Virus record (IMG/VR): IMGVR_UViG_3300041411_000178
Span: 1-64,000 of that record
DNA length: 64,000 nucleotides
Source of the DNA: a virus
Strand: one strand, 5' to 3'
The position numbers were made by a program, and so were the translations under genes. A model generated the notes under the pieces. It was given only the letters and a program-made list of their open reading frames with translations, was not told the DNA's origin and made no database searches. Positions 8,136 through 28,587 of the stretch are shown here, piece by piece. The stretch's first letter is position 1; every line of letters starts with the position of its first letter.

Positions 8136-9752
8136 ATGAAACCCACAAACCTTACGTTACTGGACTTTAACAAAATCGGTCCACCTGTGTTTCAACCGGT
8201 GACGTCCACTGACGCGTTTGAAGGCATGACCCAAAACCTCAACGAGGAAGGTCTTTATTCTCCTGAAATCTTCGGCAAGTTGGGTAGCAAAGAGCGCGAC
8301 GAGACCGAAGCGTTTATCGATACCAAATTAGAAATATTCAACCCAACGTACTTTAAAGCGATGATTCAAACAAAGTCGCTTTACCTCGGAATTATCAAAG
8401 GCACGGAATACGCCGTCTGGGACCCGCAGGCCAAAGATTTCATAAAATCCAACCTCCTCGACGGGGAGACTGGTTTCAGTTTCTTTGTGAGTCACTTCAA
8501 AGAATTGCAACCCACCCTGTCCGAGAGTTACAAGCGTAAACAAAAGGTTGAACTGGTTCAGCGCTTCAAGCCGATTGCATTGGCGAATAAGGTTCTGGTT
8601 CCGCCCGCCGGTCTTCGGGACATTGAGTTCCAACCGGATGGTTCTTCAGTAGAACCTGAGATCACCGACCTATACCGCAAGCTGTTGTTCCGCACGCGGG
8701 TAGTGTCACTGGGTAGCAAGGAAGATGGTGACAACCCACTGTATGATACGGTGCGTTGGGGACTTCAGAGTTCCTACAACGATATCGATCAGTACATCTT
8801 CGATCTGATGGACGGGAAGTCGGGTCTGTTCCAACGTCGGGTTTCGACTCGGGGTGTGGTGTCGGGTACTCGTAACGTTATTACCGCCCGTAAGGTCTCC
8901 AGAGAACACTTGCACAAAGGGAACGGGGTTAACCCGAACTCGGTGGACATGGGTCTCTATCAAGCGTTGCTGAACTTTCAGTACGTTTGTATTCACGCAT
9001 TGCTCACTAAGTACCTGGGGGATATTTTCCAGCCAGGCTCCCAAAACGTCAAGTTGGTTAACACCAAGACTCTGGAGTACGAATATGTCGAGGTCGCAGC
9101 AGCTGTTGTCGAAAAGTGGTCAACGGCCACAGGCATCTCCAAACTCTTCAACGGTTTCGGAAACGCTCGACTCCGCTCCAAACCCATCATCCTTTCTGGG
9201 CACTATCTGGCGCTGGTGTACGACGACGGTCATGATGTTTGTGTCCTGAGTGACATCAACGATCTGCCTGCCGGGAAAGATCGTAAACTGGTGACACCTA
9301 TCACCTACATGCAGCTCTATTACCTGTCCTGCCACAAAGTCATTGGCGAACAGGTTTCCCAGCAGACGCGTTACCCGGTAATCGGTATCGGTTCCATCTT
9401 CCCTGCCAAAGTTAACCTCTTGAGCATTGAAGGGGCCAAGCCGCGAACCATCCGTAACTCCGAGTGGGATGTGATCGAAGAGTGCATGCGCTATCCGCAC
9501 AACCTTGAAAAGCCTGATTACTTTGACGCCATGTCGGTAGACCCAAGTCGTGAAGCCGGTCTCGATTCCGACCACGACGGTGACATGCTCAACAGTAACA
9601 GTGTCTGTGCCGAAGACAGTAAGGCTCAGGTTAACGATCTATTCGGTAAACGTGAGTACTACATCAGCGGCAGCAATCGGTTCCTTTATGACCCTGTGAA
9701 CGAACCTATCTTGTTTATGCTCAAAGCCGCCACCAGCGGTATGGAGAAATAA
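8136..9752 (+). CDS. RNA polymerase beta'-like subunit, N-terminal part (probable virion RNAP)
   Basis: A 538-aa protein holding the metal-binding catalytic loop of multisubunit RNAP: SDHDGD at residues 478-483 (D479, D481, D483) corresponds to NADFDGD of bacterial beta'. phiKZ-type phages split beta' into separate genes, and this is the N-terminal half. It lies directly before a beta subunit gene and beside structural genes and the prohead protease, as for the virion polymerase of phiKZ (gp180/gp178 region), which is packaged and transcribes early genes on injection. No CxxC zinc cluster is visible, unlike the second beta' subunit at 57622. Phe is replaced by His in the DxDGD loop. The C-terminal half of beta' is not in this window. 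Confidence 0.8.
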   Translation: MKPTNLTLLDFNKIGPPVFQPVTSTDAFEGMTQNLNEEGLYSPEIFGKLGSKERDETEAFIDTKLEIFNPTYFKAMIQTKSLYLGIIKGTEYAVWDPQAKDFIKSNLLDGETGFSFFVSHFKELQPTLSESYKRKQKVELVQRFKPIALANKVLVPPAGLRDIEFQPDGSSVEPEITDLYRKLLFRTRVVSLGSKEDGDNPLYDTVRWGLQSSYNDIDQYIFDLMDGKSGLFQRRVSTRGVVSGTRNVITARKVSREHLHKGNGVNPNSVDMGLYQALLNFQYVCIHALLTKYLGDIFQPGSQNVKLVNTKTLEYEYVEVAAAVVEKWSTATGISKLFNGFGNARLRSKPIILSGHYLALVYDDGHDVCVLSDINDLPAGKDRKLVTPITYMQLYYLSCHKVIGEQVSQQTRYPVIGIGSIFPAKVNLLSIEGAKPRTIRNSEWDVIEECMRYPHNLEKPDYFDAMSVDPSREAGLDSDHDGDMLNSNSVCAEDSKAQVNDLFGKREYYISGSNRFLYDPVNEPILFMLKAATSGMEK

Positions 9753-9756
9753 AGGT

Positions 9757-12700
9757 ATGAATATCCCATCGGCGAACACGCTGAGTCCCCTAGACGCAGT
9801 AACGGGGGATGAAGCACTCTACCCCCAGTTCTACCGCGCCTTTGTACAGCGTAAGCGTCAAGAGTTGATCGCCCCTGTGTTCATCGGGATTGGCGAGATT
9901 ATCTTGCCACGTGGGTCGCTGGTTCACTTCTTCCCAAACAACCCACAAGAGATCGGTCCTTCGATTTCTGAAGCCTTTATCAGCAACTACCCGGATGAGG
10001 TGTTTGTTGAGTTCCCGGCGAAGTACACCCCGGTGATTGGCAACGGTCGCGCAGTACAGATCGAACCCCGCAAGATCATCACGGGTTATCGTGGGTCGCA
10101 CTACAAGTACAACTGGACCAAGGACATCAACACGGTCTACAACAAGGACAAGGTACTGGTTGTTAAGAGCTACGGCCTCGCCGACATGCTCTGGCATCCA
10201 CGTGCTTCGCTGTTTATCAATTTCGAGAAGTATTACAACCACTTCAACCTGTTGATGGATGGCGTTAACGAAGAAGCTGAGCGCAGCAAACGCCGTAAGC
10301 AGTTCTACCGTATTGACCTGCCGCTGCACATGCCGTCGTTTACTGACCTGATGATCGACTACGACCATTACGTCGAAAGCTTCCGTGACGGTAAGCCGTT
10401 GCCGAGCAACAAGACCGTTCGGACTACCAAGCAGGAGAACTCCTACTGGTTGATGGACTGGATGGCGTTCCTGTTTGGTGACAACGAATTCAGTCTGCTG
10501 AATAAGCTGTCTGATAAAGCGATCGAAGATTTCCACCTGATCTTTGTTTTCAACAGTCGTGCACTGGTGATTCACCTGGGTACGCTGAAAGGGTGGTTGG
10601 ATGCAGAGATGGATCCTAAAGCAAAAGCCAAGGAAGGCAGCGCGCCAAAGAGCAACCGTGATAAACACGGAAAGCGTTTGAACGCATCCAAGCGTGTTTA
10701 CCTGGCCTTGCTGAACCTTACCCGAGGTGGTGTCTCGGAAGAGGAAGTAGTAAAAGAGGAAAAATCCGATGGAAGAGGAGAAGAAACAGCGTCGGCTGGG
10801 GGCGTGGTTGCAGAAGCGCCGGGAGCTGAGAAAGGGAAAGGCAAAGTATCCGGTGGATCCGGAGAAGGAACGCTTCCTCGCAAAAATGACAGTAAGCGAA
10901 CTGTTGATCATCCTGATCCTCTCCGTGATGCTTTCGGTGGCGGTCAAAAAGCTGACGACGGAGTTCATGAAGGGGCCGGACAAGAGGGAGACGGAACAAA
11001 TTCTGAAAGCCTTGAAGAGTGGACATCACACGTAGACGACCGTCTGCTGGAACAAGACAAGGTGGTTGCAGATACTTCGATCAAGAAGGATCCGTTTCCC
11101 AAGTTTGAAAGTGGCGTAGGGGCTGCTCTGGAAGAAGTAGCGCGTGAGGGTAAGCTGTCTGTTTCCACTCAGCAGTTCTTCATGCGTAAAGCGACTCAGG
11201 TGTATCACATCGAAATGGAAAACGGCCAGAGTCTGGCTGAATACATGGAGATCAAACCAGAGGAGCTGAAGACGCTTACCAGCGACGCAAAGATCGAGGG
11301 TAACTTCCCCACGATTCTCGACCAATCGATGCTCCAGAGCCGTGCCAAGGTCTTGAAGCAGGGTTATGTGGACAAGTTCCTGCATAAGGACATTGCCCGC
11401 ATGGCAGTCGGTATTCAAAACGCCGGCTTTGCGTTGAACGACTACAAGCATGAGCAGATCCACGGTGTAGAAGGTTCCTACGACGTTGTGACGATGCAAG
11501 TCCACCACGTCGATGGCGAACAGTCGACTCACCAGGTTCGCTTCCCTATGGTGAACAAGGACAGTTCCTTCACTGTTGACGGGGTTAAGTCCCACCTGCA
11601 ACTGCAACGCATGGAACTGCCGATCCGCAAGATCGACGCCAGTACTGTGTTGTTGACCAGTCACTACGACCGCCAGCTCATGGTGACCCGTAGCAAGAAG
11701 GTTGTGGACGATCTGGGTGTGTGGCTGAAGAAACAGATCCTGCTGCGTGCTATGGCTGACAAGGACATCACGCTCAGTCGTGGTAATGGTCGTAACCGTG
11801 ACTATACTGGTCCGCGGATCTACACCATCTTGGCCAGTCGTTTCCAGTGGATCAATGTCGGCGGCTACATGCTGGACTTCCGCATCGAGAAGCTGCTGGA
11901 AGAGTATCCAGAGTTCAAGAAGTTCACCAAGCCGGACATGTTCCTGGTGGGCGTCAAGGACAAGAAGCCGATCACGATCGACAGCTACGGCAACCTCTAC
12001 CTGGACGGTGTTGAGTTTAACACCTTTGAAGGGTTGATGGGGATCAACTTCAGCAAAGCACCTAACGAACATGCCGTGATCAACATCAGCGGCTTTCAGT
12101 TTCCTCTGGGTGTTGTGCTGTGTTACTACTTCGGGATTGACGAACTGCTGAAGATCGTTAAGGCTACCACTCGAAGTGTCCCTATGGGTACCCGGCCTAA
12201 GTTGGCGGATGATGAATACGCCATTCAGTTCAACGACGAGTATTTGATCTTTAACCGTCGTGAGAAACTGTCCACCTTGATCTTCGGTGGGATGCCTAAG
12301 TTGAACAACATCAGTAACTTCAGCCGAAGTGACCTGAACAACAAAGGTATCTGGGGTCCGCTGATGGGAGACCCTAAGGTTCGTCCTTCTCAGTTCCTGG
12401 AGATGAACCTGCTGTACAAAATGTTTATCGACCCGGTCACTAAAGACCAGTTGAAACGCATGGGTTACAGCGAGTCCTTCCATTACCTGCTGATCGATGC
12501 TGCGAAGCTGCTGGAAACCGACTACACCCCTCACGAGGTGGAATTGGAAGAACAGCGGATCGTTGGCTATGAGCGTTTCGCAGGGCACTTCTACAAGGTC
12601 ATGGTAGGGGCATCGCGTCAGTTCTTCAACAAAGGTAAGGGTCGTAAGCAGAAGCTGGAGATCAACCCTGAAGCTGTGATCATGAACATCCTCAAGGACA

Positions 12701-14127
12701 CCTCGGTTAACCGGGTAGAGGAAGTGGGCCCAATTCACCAGTGTAAGGATCAGGAGGAACTGACCTTTGGTGGCACGGGTGGTCGCAGTGAGATCACGGT
12801 AGTTAAGCGCGCACGTGTGCAGCTGAAAAGCTATCGTGGCAAGATCTCTGAGGCGAACAAGGATAGCGGCAAGGTAGGTTTCGTAACTTACTTGACGTCT
12901 GATCCTTTGATCCTCGACTACCGCGGCAACATCGACACCAAGAGTAAACCATCTGCTACCTCGCTGTATTCGGTAACAGGTAACCTCGCATTCGGTATGA
13001 ACAAGGACGATACCAAGCGTGGCATGTTTACCTCGACTCAGGCGTCTCAAGCGGTCAGTGCTGAAAACTACACCATGCCAATCACCCGCACAGGCTATGA
13101 CAACATCATTGCTCAGCGGACCTCTGAACTCTACAGCAAGGTTGCTAAAGAGGCCGGTAAGGTAACGGCTGTTGAAGACGACCATATGGAAATCACCTAT
13201 AACGACGGCAACACTGAAAAGTATCCGTTGGGTTTGGTTATTGGTGAAGCCAGTGGTGAGTACCATCGTCACACCCGCGTTACCGATATGAAAGTCGGCG
13301 ACAAGTTTACGAAGGGTGAGATCCTGGGTTGGGACAAGCAGTGGTTTGCGCGTGACCCATTCTGCCCAGGACAAGTGGTTTGGAAAAACGGTCGTCAAGT
13401 TCGTATTGCGCTGGTAGAAGACCAAGACACCTACGAAGACTCCATCGCGGTTTCGAAAGAGATCATGGAGGAATCGATTACCCCGTTCCTGACGAAGAAC
13501 ACCTTCGCCGTGGATGTGGATAAAGTTGTGACCTTCCGGGTTAAACTAGGTGACCAAATCGACTACGACGCGATTTTATGCGAAATTGAAGAGAGCCACC
13601 TGGCGGGGGCTGGAGAGGCGAATAGCCAAGTCGGGGATATCAACCGTCTGGGGATCAAGCAGATCCGCTCCAAGTACCACGGCCAGGTCGTGAAGATCGA
13701 GGTGATGTACAACTCACCCGCGGAAAAGATGTCGGACAGTGTGCGTAAACTGGTTGCTGCTTCGGACAAAGAACGCAAGCGCATGTCTTCGATTGATGGC
13801 AGTGTTCCAACAGGTAGCGTGAGTAACAACCTCAACGTGAGTAAGCCTGTATTGTCACCAGGAAAAGTATTGTTTACTGTCTACGTCGAATCCATGGATG
13901 GTTCTACCACCTCGGACAAATACGTAATTGCCAACCAGATGAAAGGTACTGTCAACGGTGTAATGAAGAAGCCGTTGATGACTCAAGACGGTCGTGTGGT
14001 AGACGTCAAGTGTAGCTTTAAAGGCGGCTTTAACCGCATGGTACTGAGCTTACGGGATCGACTGGGTACAAGTGAACTGTCGGTTGGGGTTACCAAACAG
14101 GCTATTGCCATTTACAGAGGTAAGTAA
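9757..14127 (+). CDS. RNA polymerase beta-like subunit (probable virion RNAP)
   Basis: A 1456-aa protein. Near residues 1222-1240 the segment EDQDTYEDSIAVSKE matches the beta motif GYNYEDSI, preceded by KVGDKFTKGEILG. The segment GDPKVRPSQFLEMNLLYK near 870 is also beta-like. It starts four bases after the beta' gene, so the two are cotranscribed and probably form one virion polymerase with a beta' C-terminal partner encoded elsewhere. Residues about 325-430 are a low-complexity Glu/Gly/Lys-rich linker unlike the rest. That stretch coincides exactly with a second, out-of-frame coding sequence (10769-11035), so its composition may be a by-product of overprinting. The ATG at 9757 has GGAG 10 nt upstream. 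Confidence 0.8.
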   Translation: MNIPSANTLSPLDAVTGDEALYPQFYRAFVQRKRQELIAPVFIGIGEIILPRGSLVHFFPNNPQEIGPSISEAFISNYPDEVFVEFPAKYTPVIGNGRAVQIEPRKIITGYRGSHYKYNWTKDINTVYNKDKVLVVKSYGLADMLWHPRASLFINFEKYYNHFNLLMDGVNEEAERSKRRKQFYRIDLPLHMPSFTDLMIDYDHYVESFRDGKPLPSNKTVRTTKQENSYWLMDWMAFLFGDNEFSLLNKLSDKAIEDFHLIFVFNSRALVIHLGTLKGWLDAEMDPKAKAKEGSAPKSNRDKHGKRLNASKRVYLALLNLTRGGVSEEEVVKEEKSDGRGEETASAGGVVAEAPGAEKGKGKVSGGSGEGTLPRKNDSKRTVDHPDPLRDAFGGGQKADDGVHEGAGQEGDGTNSESLEEWTSHVDDRLLEQDKVVADTSIKKDPFPKFESGVGAALEEVAREGKLSVSTQQFFMRKATQVYHIEMENGQSLAEYMEIKPEELKTLTSDAKIEGNFPTILDQSMLQSRAKVLKQGYVDKFLHKDIARMAVGIQNAGFALNDYKHEQIHGVEGSYDVVTMQVHHVDGEQSTHQVRFPMVNKDSSFTVDGVKSHLQLQRMELPIRKIDASTVLLTSHYDRQLMVTRSKKVVDDLGVWLKKQILLRAMADKDITLSRGNGRNRDYTGPRIYTILASRFQWINVGGYMLDFRIEKLLEEYPEFKKFTKPDMFLVGVKDKKPITIDSYGNLYLDGVEFNTFEGLMGINFSKAPNEHAVINISGFQFPLGVVLCYYFGIDELLKIVKATTRSVPMGTRPKLADDEYAIQFNDEYLIFNRREKLSTLIFGGMPKLNNISNFSRSDLNNKGIWGPLMGDPKVRPSQFLEMNLLYKMFIDPVTKDQLKRMGYSESFHYLLIDAAKLLETDYTPHEVELEEQRIVGYERFAGHFYKVMVGASRQFFNKGKGRKQKLEINPEAVIMNILKDTSVNRVEEVGPIHQCKDQEELTFGGTGGRSEITVVKRARVQLKSYRGKISEANKDSGKVGFVTYLTSDPLILDYRGNIDTKSKPSATSLYSVTGNLAFGMNKDDTKRGMFTSTQASQAVSAENYTMPITRTGYDNIIAQRTSELYSKVAKEAGKVTAVEDDHMEITYNDGNTEKYPLGLVIGEASGEYHRHTRVTDMKVGDKFTKGEILGWDKQWFARDPFCPGQVVWKNGRQVRIALVEDQDTYEDSIAVSKEIMEESITPFLTKNTFAVDVDKVVTFRVKLGDQIDYDAILCEIEESHLAGAGEANSQVGDINRLGIKQIRSKYHGQVVKIEVMYNSPAEKMSDSVRKLVAASDKERKRMSSIDGSVPTGSVSNNLNVSKPVLSPGKVLFTVYVESMDGSTTSDKYVIANQMKGTVNGVMKKPLMTQDGRVVDVKCSFKGGFNRMVLSLRDRLGTSELSVGVTKQAIAIYRGK
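10769..11035 (+). CDS. 88-aa single-pass membrane protein embedded (+1 frame) in the RNAP beta gene
   Basis: This frame lies wholly inside the beta gene and encodes a basic, amphipathic N-terminus (residues 1-40), one hydrophobic span at about 42-59 (SELLIILILSVMLSVAV) and a charged C-terminal tail. AGAGGA sits 8 nt before its ATG. Its codons look like ordinary phage coding sequence, while the overlapping beta frame is low-complexity here, which suggests the embedded frame is the constrained one. The endolysin downstream (14130) has no signal peptide and needs a membrane partner, so a holin or inner-membrane spanin role is possible, but nothing in the sequence proves it. No homologue is recognised. 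Confidence 0.5.
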   Translation: MEEEKKQRRLGAWLQKRRELRKGKAKYPVDPEKERFLAKMTVSELLIILILSVMLSVAVKKLTTEFMKGPDKRETEQILKALKSGHHT

Positions 14128-14129
14128 AG

Positions 14130-15050
14130 ATGAGCTTCCGGACAGTCAACGGGGTTAAGGACGTACAAGTGGTTCTCGAAGAGAGCCATGTCTACTCTGG
14201 CGGTATTGACGGCGTCTGGGGTGCTGGGTCGGCGAATGGGGTTCTGAAGCTTCTTCAGGACTACCATTTGTTCCTGAACGGGGGGCGCTCTGTGCCCCTC
14301 CCAGTTACCGCAGGCAAGGGTCTTGAAATACAAGGCATCAAGGACATCCAGAGCAACCTTAAGCTGGTGGGTCTGTACACCGGTGAAGTTGACGGTATTC
14401 CGGGTAACGGCAGCCTGGGTGGTTTGCGTCAAGCAGCCTTCAGCTATGCCAAGCGCAACAAGGTTCCGTTCTACGACCTCGGTTGGAGTGCACGGGTTCC
14501 TGCGGCCTTCACCAAGAAGGTACGTGACTGGGCTACACAGCGCAGCATGTTCCCCGGTGCGGCTTCTGCACTGATGGCGTGCATGTGCTTTGAATCAGGC
14601 GGCACCTTCCGTCCTGATAAACAGAACAACGGCGGTAGCAACTACTGGGGTCTGATCCAATTCGGTAAGGACGCGGTAGAAGACTTGGCTAAAACGTTTG
14701 GGTTGAAGATCACCCTGGATGACGTCAAGGCCATGAGTCAACTGGATCAACTCGATCTGGTGTTCAAGTATTTCGAAATGTGGCAGAAGCGCGGCAAGGT
14801 TTACAAGCGCCTCGAAGACTTCTATCTGACGATCTTCTATCCCGCTGCTGTGGGTAAGGGTCCAGACGAAGTTCTGTTCACCAAAGGTTCTGAGGTTCCT
14901 ATCATTGCCAAGTCGTATGTCCAGAACAACGGATTCGACATCAACAAGGATGGGGCCATCACCGTGGGCGAGATCTGTACTCGTCTCTACGATTTCTATT
15001 ACCAAGGGATGTCGGTCAAAAACCGTGTCTCCAGCCCTTCACCACTCTAA
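14130..15050 (+). CDS. Modular endolysin: two peptidoglycan-binding repeats plus lytic transglycosylase-like domain
   Basis: A 306-aa protein with two N-terminal PG_binding repeats, about residues 9-45 (VKDVQ...YSGGIDGVWG) and 70-106 (IKDIQ...YTGEVDGIPG), followed by a catalytic domain from about 125. The probable catalytic glutamate is E155 in CFESGG, followed by SNYWGLIQFG. This is the inverted modular layout of the phiKZ endolysin KZ144 and of EL188 (I recall about 260 and 292 aa). It cleaves host peptidoglycan at lysis. No signal peptide or membrane span, so release needs a holin or similar. The ATG at 14130 uses AGAGG inside the 3' end of the beta gene, so the endolysin is coupled to the virion RNAP operon. 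Confidence 0.85.
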   Translation: MSFRTVNGVKDVQVVLEESHVYSGGIDGVWGAGSANGVLKLLQDYHLFLNGGRSVPLPVTAGKGLEIQGIKDIQSNLKLVGLYTGEVDGIPGNGSLGGLRQAAFSYAKRNKVPFYDLGWSARVPAAFTKKVRDWATQRSMFPGAASALMACMCFESGGTFRPDKQNNGGSNYWGLIQFGKDAVEDLAKTFGLKITLDDVKAMSQLDQLDLVFKYFEMWQKRGKVYKRLEDFYLTIFYPAAVGKGPDEVLFTKGSEVPIIAKSYVQNNGFDINKDGAITVGEICTRLYDFYYQGMSVKNRVSSPSPL

Positions 15051-15071: not shown

Positions 15072-15248
15072 ATGACTGATAAAGAGCAACTCATCACCAA
15101 CATCGTCACGGTAGCCAATACCGTGGAGGTGGTCAAAAAGACCCTCGCCAAAGTAGGGTTGCAGTTCCTTGCCCCTTTGGGTGAATCCATGCTGGATGAG
15201 AAAATCAGCAAGGCTATCGTGGGCTGCGTTCAAGGAGCGTCGAAATGA
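15072..15248 (+). CDS. Small unknown protein, 58 aa
   Basis: The ATG at 15072 follows a good ribosome site (CCAGGAGATC). The frame ends at the TGA at 15246-15248, overlapping the next ATG (15245) by four bases, which indicates translational coupling. The product begins MTDKEQLITNIVTVANTVE, is probably helical, and has no recognised motif. Its place between the endolysin and a conserved virion-type gene suggests a late role. Confidence 0.65.
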   Translation: MTDKEQLITNIVTVANTVEVVKKTLAKVGLQFLAPLGESMLDEKISKAIVGCVQGASK

Positions 15249-26872: not shown

Positions 26873-27349
26873 ATGCGATTGCTTATCGTGCTGTTATTGG
26901 TGGTCCTTGCTTCGGCAGAGCCCGCCATGGCCAGAGCAGGTATCATGGCTGGTATACCTGAGAGCAAACAAGAAAGTGTTCTGATGAGCTGTGACACGGA
27001 AGCTGGCAAGAGTCTGCTAGTCCTTCGTGATCCAGATACAGACACCTTCACGATTCTCTACGGTAAAGACCTGATCCGGCCTGAGCAGATAGTAGTCAAG
27101 CTAGGCAATGACATGGGTACCTCCTATCACCATTCCGCGTCGGAAGCTACCGACACTCGAGAGATCTACTCGGCGGATGGGCAACAGTTCACTACAGTGG
27201 GCTATATGGATAAGGCAGGTGTCATATCGGCGTATTACAAATTACAAACCGGTGTGACAGTGTTGATCTCGGATAAGTGTACTGCGGCTAGTATCAGCAG
27301 TGCGTTTGACTTCTCTGAGAACTTCTCCAATATGACCGAGGTTGACTAA
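26873..27349 (+). CDS. Exported protein with Sec signal peptide, 158 aa
   Basis: The N-terminus MRLLIVLLLVVLASAEPAMA is a typical Sec signal: one Arg, a hydrophobic core, and small residues before a likely signal-peptidase I site in AMARA (around residues 20-22). There is no lipobox. The mature part of about 135 residues has cysteines (for example MSCDTE and SDKCTA) that could form a periplasmic disulfide. No family recognised. AAAGGAG gives a near-ideal ribosome site. A phage protein sent to the periplasm may modify the envelope or block superinfection; that is inference. Confidence 0.65.
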   Translation: MRLLIVLLLVVLASAEPAMARAGIMAGIPESKQESVLMSCDTEAGKSLLVLRDPDTDTFTILYGKDLIRPEQIVVKLGNDMGTSYHHSASEATDTREIYSADGQQFTTVGYMDKAGVISAYYKLQTGVTVLISDKCTAASISSAFDFSENFSNMTEVD

Positions 27350-28158: not shown

Positions 28159-28587
28159 ATGTCAGCACTCATCGAGGACTTCATACTGGTCGCTATCTGG
28201 GCAACCGTTGTTGTCTTACTGGTGGTACGGCACAAGGAAAGACGTGGGCTGCTCTACGGATTAACCTTAACCGATGACGGTATGACGTTCTGGTACAGAT
28301 TAGGAATCTACGCCGGAACTGTAACGATGGTTCGCGATGTGATGGTAAAGGAGCCACAACTAACCGGAAACGTTGTGGGTTGGTTGTGTCGGTTCCCTGT
28401 TCGCTACACGAATAAGGAGATGTGCAACTACATCAGGATGTATGCCCCTTTCTGTTCTGAGACCACGCCTCACTCGAAGGACCTTTGGATCTTTAATGAG
28501 GTGGTCAATCGAAACAACAATGGTTTGATTAGTGTCTATGGTCAGATCTTCTTGTTTGACAATCGCGATGGTAAAGGCTTTTATTGA
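28159..28587 (+). CDS. Membrane-anchored unknown protein, 142 aa
   Basis: A single N-terminal hydrophobic segment (about residues 6-23, FILVAIWATVVVLLVV) followed by RHKERR indicates an N-out, C-in anchor by the positive-inside rule. The remaining cytoplasmic part of about 115 residues has no recognised motif. It shares an operon with 27418 and lies near the exported protein at 26873, so this short region may act at the host envelope. Confidence 0.6.
   Translation: MSALIEDFILVAIWATVVVLLVVRHKERRGLLYGLTLTDDGMTFWYRLGIYAGTVTMVRDVMVKEPQLTGNVVGWLCRFPVRYTNKEMCNYIRMYAPFCSETTPHSKDLWIFNEVVNRNNNGLISVYGQIFLFDNRDGKGFY

Follow-up and report, generated by a model that had tools for sequence, protein, structure and literature searches.

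In the tiny ssDNA phage phiX174, the lysis gene E sits inside gene D, and the span of its membrane-protein product is located right at the N-terminus. The lambda Rz/Rz1 pair likewise includes a small envelope gene nested out of frame, and T4 T is a holin with one N-in/C-out span. Overlapped small genes are also described for the Pseudomonas phage Fc02, whose olg1/olg2 pair includes one gene that was assayed and excludes other phages (PMC9936078). EL188 and OBPgp279 are presented as modular endolysins in PMC3352856.

Here, a 64,000-base stretch (the window; positions 1 to 64,000 of IMG/VR record IMGVR_UViG_3300041411_000178, 224,004 bases in full) was analyzed, in which an 88-aa open reading frame (hereafter the ORF) lies at 10769-11035 on the plus strand, in the +1 frame relative to a virion-type RNA polymerase (vRNAP) beta subunit gene. 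Comparison with relatives indicates that it is almost certainly a real overprinted protein-coding gene and, taking both properties together, very probably one with a membrane-protein product. Like phiX174 E, it would encode a membrane protein of some 90 aa from a shifted frame of a longer phage gene. This likeness is one of layout, and the ORF differs in having about 40 basic residues ahead of a span at residues 41-59, rather than a span at the extreme N-terminus, and in belonging to a 224-kb record. The lambda pair resembles it as a nested envelope gene; the ORF product, however, lacks a lipobox and continues for only about 29 residues beyond its span, unlike a spanin, and an overlapping spanin-like pair exists separately elsewhere in the genome. 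The predicted topology with one membrane span is that of T4 T, but the ORF product has no Pfam, PHROGs or NCBIfam match, and its gene sits inside a polymerase gene. The Fc02 genes belong to another phage type and encode other proteins, and the resemblance is again one of layout. EL gp188 and OBP gp279 correspond to the neighbour of the ORF, as a homolog and a positional match, respectively, and not to the ORF. Jumbo phages, at 200-280 kb, have room to spare, and overprinting on an RNA polymerase gene was thus unexpected.

An open reading frame embedded in the vRNAP beta gene

The host gene (9757-14127, plus strand) belongs to phrog_3148 and is preceded by another vRNAP subunit gene (8136-9752, plus strand, phrog_2986); the beta counterpart in phiKZ is recorded as a structural head protein. 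The ORF lies in a fast-evolving, low-complexity, Glu/Gly/Lys-rich linker of beta (approximately 10624-11151, codons about 290-465), where the earlier note had described a low-complexity Glu/Gly-rich linker. It begins with an ATG, and the ribosome site which that note had assigned to it is a Shine-Dalgarno-like GAGGA at 10756-10760, separated from the ATG by 8 nt. In 36 of the 44 loci carrying the ORF, one or more possible starts have a site of this kind ahead of them, and on the EL side of the branch an ATG with such a site 5-9 nt before it is found repeatedly; the eight loci without such a site are all OBP/Aeromonas-type.

The window protein has a basic N-terminal portion followed by a single hydrophobic span at residues 41-59 (10889-10945), with a 19-residue Kyte-Doolittle maximum of 2.44. 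The maximum falls below 2.0 in five of the 44 loci and below 1.6 in two of them (L031, 1.44; pTD1, 1.58); the span is also weak in LAh10 (1.79), the least certain ORF carrier of the branch. In 40 of the 44 loci, the N-terminal flank of the span carries more positive charge than the C-terminal flank. An AlphaFold2 model, of moderate confidence only (mean pLDDT 69.7, pTM 0.32), places helices at residues 2-23, 31-39 and 42-83, the last of which contains the span except for its first residue. In an alignment of 16 ORF sequences, M1, W13, R17, S56 and G85 are invariant, and a conserved C-terminal segment (residues 69-85; 10973-11023) contains, besides G85, the nearly invariant R73, E74 and E76. 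The product is thus predicted to be a single-pass membrane protein, oriented N-in/C-out by the positive-inside rule. It would sit in the inner membrane, with a basic, helical cytoplasmic N-terminus of about 40 residues, one span and a short helical C-terminal tail outside. We suggest that ribosomes start independently at the ATG behind GAGGA on the beta mRNA. Because this mRNA is shared with a virion protein, the ORF product would be expected when virion proteins are made.

The window protein gave no family match in Pfam, PHROGs or NCBIfam, the PDB sequences held no usable relative, and a profile search of its own genome matched only the ORF itself. When 25 ORF members were compared with profiles, only scattered single-member matches appeared, the best of them, at E = 0.0098, with a functionally uncharacterised family. 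A tblastn search of 50,697 phage records with the window ORF returned no match at E<=10, and the ORF of L033 gave only three matches in phage records (E 8-10), all in genes called RNA polymerase. In viral contigs, the ORF was matched at 14 loci, on contigs or at places where it sits in beta, and three single-member queries found no stand-alone homolog outside beta. Among GTDB genome contigs, 18 stretches fit a pattern, none of them a beta relative. The open-access literature, to which this search was mostly confined as opposed to subscription papers, held no paper describing the ORF by its title or the opening of its abstract.

Two further features of the beta gene were recorded. The minus strand opposite beta contains very long antisense open frames at 9790-10983 (397 aa) and 11026-13425 (799 aa). 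In EL (L002), a Raoultella phage (L005) and FishSpeaker (L007), inserted DNA splits beta near residue 1085-1088, and the records of EL and FishSpeaker also have an HNH endonuclease gene upstream. The arrangement resembles intron-like interruptions of polymerase genes. Such insertions were considered as an origin of the beta linker and rejected, as they lie outside it.

Conservation within one phage branch

A tblastn search with beta retrieved 291 records of named phages, all below 60% identity, while viral contigs yielded 26 beta loci at 52-100% identity and seven ORF loci at 80-100%. The window, seven named phages and the 26 viral contigs gave 34 beta loci, of which six, missing the N-terminal part, were dropped. 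The ORF is kept in all 28 loci that hold the region, in the +1 frame and in the same linker, and all 28 copies share the layout of a basic N-terminal part, a hydrophobic span and then a charged tail. It was found in six of 14 further named phages (OBP, KPN8, pEt-SU, LAh10, N1M2 and AVP1), in nine of nine more loci of the Aeromonas, Vibrio, Serratia and OBP groups, and in the beta gene of SXP01. Altogether, a +1-frame ORF is present at the linker in 44 of 44 loci of the EL/RisingSun/Miami/Vibrio/OBP/Aeromonas branch, representing 37 distinct proteins, and L060 provides a 45th copy, likewise in the +1 frame inside beta. Stops in the embedded frame of relatives, which would have spoken against the gene, were therefore not encountered in these 44 loci.

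The remaining eight of the 14 further phages lack the ORF (phiKZ, Noxifer, Goslar, Ea35-70, SPN3US, FLC9, LucasX and PCH45), although some of them, Noxifer and FLC9 included, have long open +1 stretches at the linker without a hydrophobic span. In a midpoint-rooted, 30-taxon beta tree, the phages that carry the ORF group together in a single clade (local support 0.89), and the eight more distant, ORF-less phages mark the limit of the branch. The ORF was very probably overprinted on the vRNAP beta linker in the ancestor of one phiKZ-related jumbo-phage branch and has since been retained, even as beta identity fell to about 36-38%. No CDS for it is annotated in any of the 20 named ORF-bearing records, EL and OBP included, so that annotation-based work would have overlooked it; it is a so far unannotated gene in the records of its branch examined.

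Selection on the two overlapping frames

Codon-position tests were based on three disjoint close pairs, with 1116 88-codon beta windows away from the ORF as the control. The difference rate at beta third positions is 0.087 inside the ORF, whereas the control windows average 0.264 and never fall below 0.152; subtracting the third-position rate from the first-position rate gives +0.140 for the ORF and no more than -0.121 elsewhere. Inside the ORF, the most variable sites are beta first positions, which correspond to third positions of the ORF. At positions 1, 2 and 3, the ORF has 60, 37 and 23 differences, the remainder of beta 258, 135 and 976, and the part of the linker beyond the ORF 38, 22 and 105. 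With sites treated as independent, Fisher tests of the ORF give p = 9.3e-22 relative to the remainder of beta and p = 2.4e-11 relative to the outer linker. The L033 group gave ORF counts of 51, 26 and 15, with p = 1.3e-22 and 7e-11, respectively, its tree paths also being taken as independent. When the window was compared with other loci, first-position differences exceeded third-position differences inside the ORF in 14 of 14 cases, and not in the flanking or body regions. All 12 pairs drawn from the Vibrio, Serratia/Klebsiella, Aeromonas and OBP groups show the same inversion.

Site classes defined on both frames agree with this. In the overlap, the rate for changes synonymous in beta and nonsynonymous in the ORF is 0.100, that for the reverse class is 0.390, and that for changes nonsynonymous in both is 0.075; the corresponding values in control beta codons 440-1440 are 0.393, 0.060 and 0.041. 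Within the overlap, dN/dS is 0.19 for the ORF and 0.75 for beta in the close pairs, and 0.23 and 0.86 in the L033 group, as raw ratios of proportions uncorrected for multiple hits. In more distant pairs, the ORF value rises to as much as 0.57-0.90, probably through saturation. The ORF-frame ratio is 0.34 even in the first beta window, where no ORF is claimed, whereas the beta-frame ratio is 0.75-0.80 at the ORF and at most 0.24 in windows clear of it. What is peculiar to the ORF region is hence the raised beta-frame ratio, and not a low ORF-frame ratio alone.

The rate of beta-synonymous change drops from outside to inside the ORF in each of the groups compared: from 0.596 to 0.107 in VP4B/pTD1, from 0.648 to 0.112 in USC-1/2 TSL-2019, from 0.422 to 0.090 in Yubaba/N1M2 and from 0.232 to 0.027 in ACP1/AVP1. 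In OBP-type contigs the drop is weaker (0.50 to 0.29, 0.49 to 0.19 and 0.55 to 0.33), because the open stretch is longer than its conserved part. As a control, three of three Ea35-70-type pairs, which lack the ORF and have a fast linker, show no inversion (36, 20, 45; 24, 23, 29; and 10, 8, 11 differences at positions 1, 2 and 3). A further control pair, L083/L084, has a third-position dip in the linker, again without inversion (5, 4 and 5 in 88 codons). Its beta codons about 364-456 are unusually similar at all positions, against 419 third-position differences gene-wide, perhaps through recombination or another overlapping element. The beta gene of L085 was open and usable over only 463 codons.

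An open +1 frame is by itself unsurprising in such a linker. When beta was shuffled synonymously, the frame stayed open in 34% of the shuffles of the window, with a median of 25% over the 34 loci; frames that are both open and equally hydrophobic arise in only 0.15% of them (median 0.3%), and the comparison with relatives lifts the ORF far above chance. That the frame merely opened by chance from Glu/Gly/Lys-rich linker codons, its span mirroring a conserved ILDVF-like motif of beta, is exceedingly improbable, even though shuffles of some relatives keep the frame open in up to 94% and a short ILDVF/LADLY-like motif is kept in beta opposite the span. Constraint on beta would yield the opposite of the observed pattern: beta third positions, rather than first positions, are frozen, and first positions are released only inside the ORF, in several branches. 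A span driven by the beta motif was rejected for this reason, and the codon-position and dN/dS tests, together with the ORF-less control, led to rejection of a chance frame. Programmed frameshifting from beta, which would join the beta N-terminus to the membrane segment, could draw on the open +1 stretch of the window starting only five codons before the ATG, in an A/G-rich run. It is nonetheless very unlikely, since it needs neither an ATG nor a Shine-Dalgarno-like site, yet such sites recur across the EL side. We therefore retain the reading of an independently started, overprinted gene. The comparison of synonymous sites in both frames, which the earlier note had proposed as a check, came out in its favour, beta third positions being depressed only inside the ORF. 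These substitution patterns show that selection acts on the amino acids of the ORF, leaving the beta linker almost unconstrained within the overlap, and that the ORF is more strongly protected by evolution than the beta sequence sharing its DNA. The overlap also inverts the usual picture, with the added frame constrained and the polymerase linker nearly free.

Lysis genes near the ORF and elsewhere in the genome

An endolysin gene close to the ORF, pointed out in the earlier note, is indeed present at 14130-15050 on the plus strand, 3,094 bases downstream. Its product is an endolysin or lysozyme-like protein of the EL gp188/OBP gp279 type, 48.7% identical to EL gp188, with a strong match to phrog_4928 and weak matches to lysozyme-like Pfam families. 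Of the 13 named ORF-bearing loci whose flank is long enough, 12 have a matching endolysin gene after beta, on the same strand; in OBP, gp279 occupies the position without a sequence match, and in L063-L068 the flank is too short to judge this neighbour. Ea35-70 encodes the catalytic part of the endolysin (36.8%, residues 70-299) yet has no ORF. The following 58-aa gene (15072-15248, plus strand) is conserved and annotated as a putative virion structural protein in OBP and N1M2; it was considered as a holin and rejected, its hydropathy maximum being only 0.96.

In the relative SXP01, the gene after beta is annotated as a putative endolysin. As reported in PMC12571629, its soluble endolysin LysSXP-2 has no signal peptide or TMD and no lytic activity, and a second lysin, LysSXP-1, has both a signal peptide and a TMD and is lytic, so that a holin-independent route is possible. 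The authors detected no holin gene and consider that holin-like genes may have escaped prediction. From the annotation we infer that LysSXP-2 is the product of the gene after beta, and the lytic transglycosylase of SXP01 was likewise taken to be LysSXP-1. A search for a homolog of this transglycosylase in the genome of the window found none at E<=0.01, a result that shows little as it had no positive control.

According to the earlier note, no holin was otherwise visible. This holds at most for the window, as the genome contains a spanin-like pair and a candidate membrane protein beyond it (record coordinates; genome G000, locus L080). There, RuvC (129,862-130,449) is followed by a 235-aa candidate membrane protein (130,440-131,147), with modest hydropathy maxima of 1.56 and 1.17, and by an i-spanin-like protein on the minus strand (131,563-132,111) that overlaps a lipobox protein. 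The spanin-like proteins gave no firm match to a spanin profile (best Rz-like E = 0.027). In SXP01, RuvC is followed by an unannotated 214-aa ORF with three hydrophobic segments and then by an overlapping opposite-strand pair, Rz1-like by the record, so that the order of RuvC, membrane-type protein and overlapping spanin-like pair is common to both genomes. The 235-aa and 214-aa proteins are 29% identical over 113 residues. The 235-aa type occurs in 69 phage records, and 29 of the 30 listed are also among the 60 best beta matches. The region 129,862-132,111 is a possible lysis cassette of this phage branch.

Possible roles of the ORF product

The earlier note had suggested a lysis or injection protein. 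The lysis part of this proposal gains from the EL gp188-type endolysin gene downstream and loses from the rival candidate beside the spanin-like pair; for injection, the analysis turned up no direct evidence. Our single most likely guess, offered tentatively, is an accessory lysis protein, i.e., a holin, antiholin or lysis-timing partner, working with the EL188-type endolysin. The narrower reading of the ORF product as the holin, or a second holin, which would build up late in the inner membrane and release the endolysin encoded 3.1 kb downstream, is possible though doubtful. It fits the position upstream of a same-strand endolysin gene in the loci described above (OBP by position only), as well as the prediction, from hydropathy and the model, of a small protein with at least one membrane span. 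Small out-of-frame lysis genes are known in phages, phiX174 E and lambda Rz1 among them, which also counts for a holin. A cytoplasmic basic part of 40 residues is, on the other hand, long for a small holin, and the conserved candidate beside the spanin-like pair in the window genome and SXP01 (of modest hydropathy in the former), the endolysin domain of Ea35-70 without an ORF, and the distance to the endolysin gene all weigh against this reading. With that second candidate, the ORF may be the holin, its partner, or unrelated to lysis. SXP01 carries the ORF alongside a soluble endolysin inactive alone and no holin found, which makes the ORF one concrete candidate for the missing membrane step suspected by its authors (PMC12571629). 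The endolysin homolog gp231 of RisingSun was detected in virions according to PMC6034870, which counts against a lysis role of the ORF.

The same virion finding (PMC6034870) favours instead a virion-, assembly- or entry-related membrane protein, which could anchor particles at the inner membrane during assembly or be carried into a new host. The surrounding block of beta parts, lysin, 58-aa gene and virion structural genes is likewise largely virion-related by annotation. Sharing DNA with a virion gene proves no virion role, and comparable blocks lacking the ORF occur in phiKZ and other more distant phages; this role, too, is conceivable but doubtful. A superinfection-exclusion or host-membrane-modifying protein seems unlikely: the small product of the Fc02 gene pair that excludes other phages (PMC9936078) offers a precedent, but there is no specific link to the ORF sequence. 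The lone match to the SieB PHROG is at chance level (E = 0.16, one of 25 members), and the presumed late co-expression with virion proteins would come late for exclusion. A role outside lysis, virion assembly or entry, and exclusion or membrane takeover is likewise rather improbable. Returning to the accessory lysis protein and to particle docking, translation from the polymerase mRNA might make the dose of the membrane protein depend on how much polymerase is supplied for new particles, and the protein could for that reason act as a supply-linked trigger. That the branch depends on the beta-embedded protein for such triggering of lysis or particle docking is a speculative and distinctly unlikely extension.

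Two other membrane-type reading frames were seen in the window. A 142-aa ORF at 28159-28587, outside any longer ORF, has a strong N-terminal membrane span (2.52), and a 158-aa ORF at 26873-27349 starts with a signal-peptide-like stretch.
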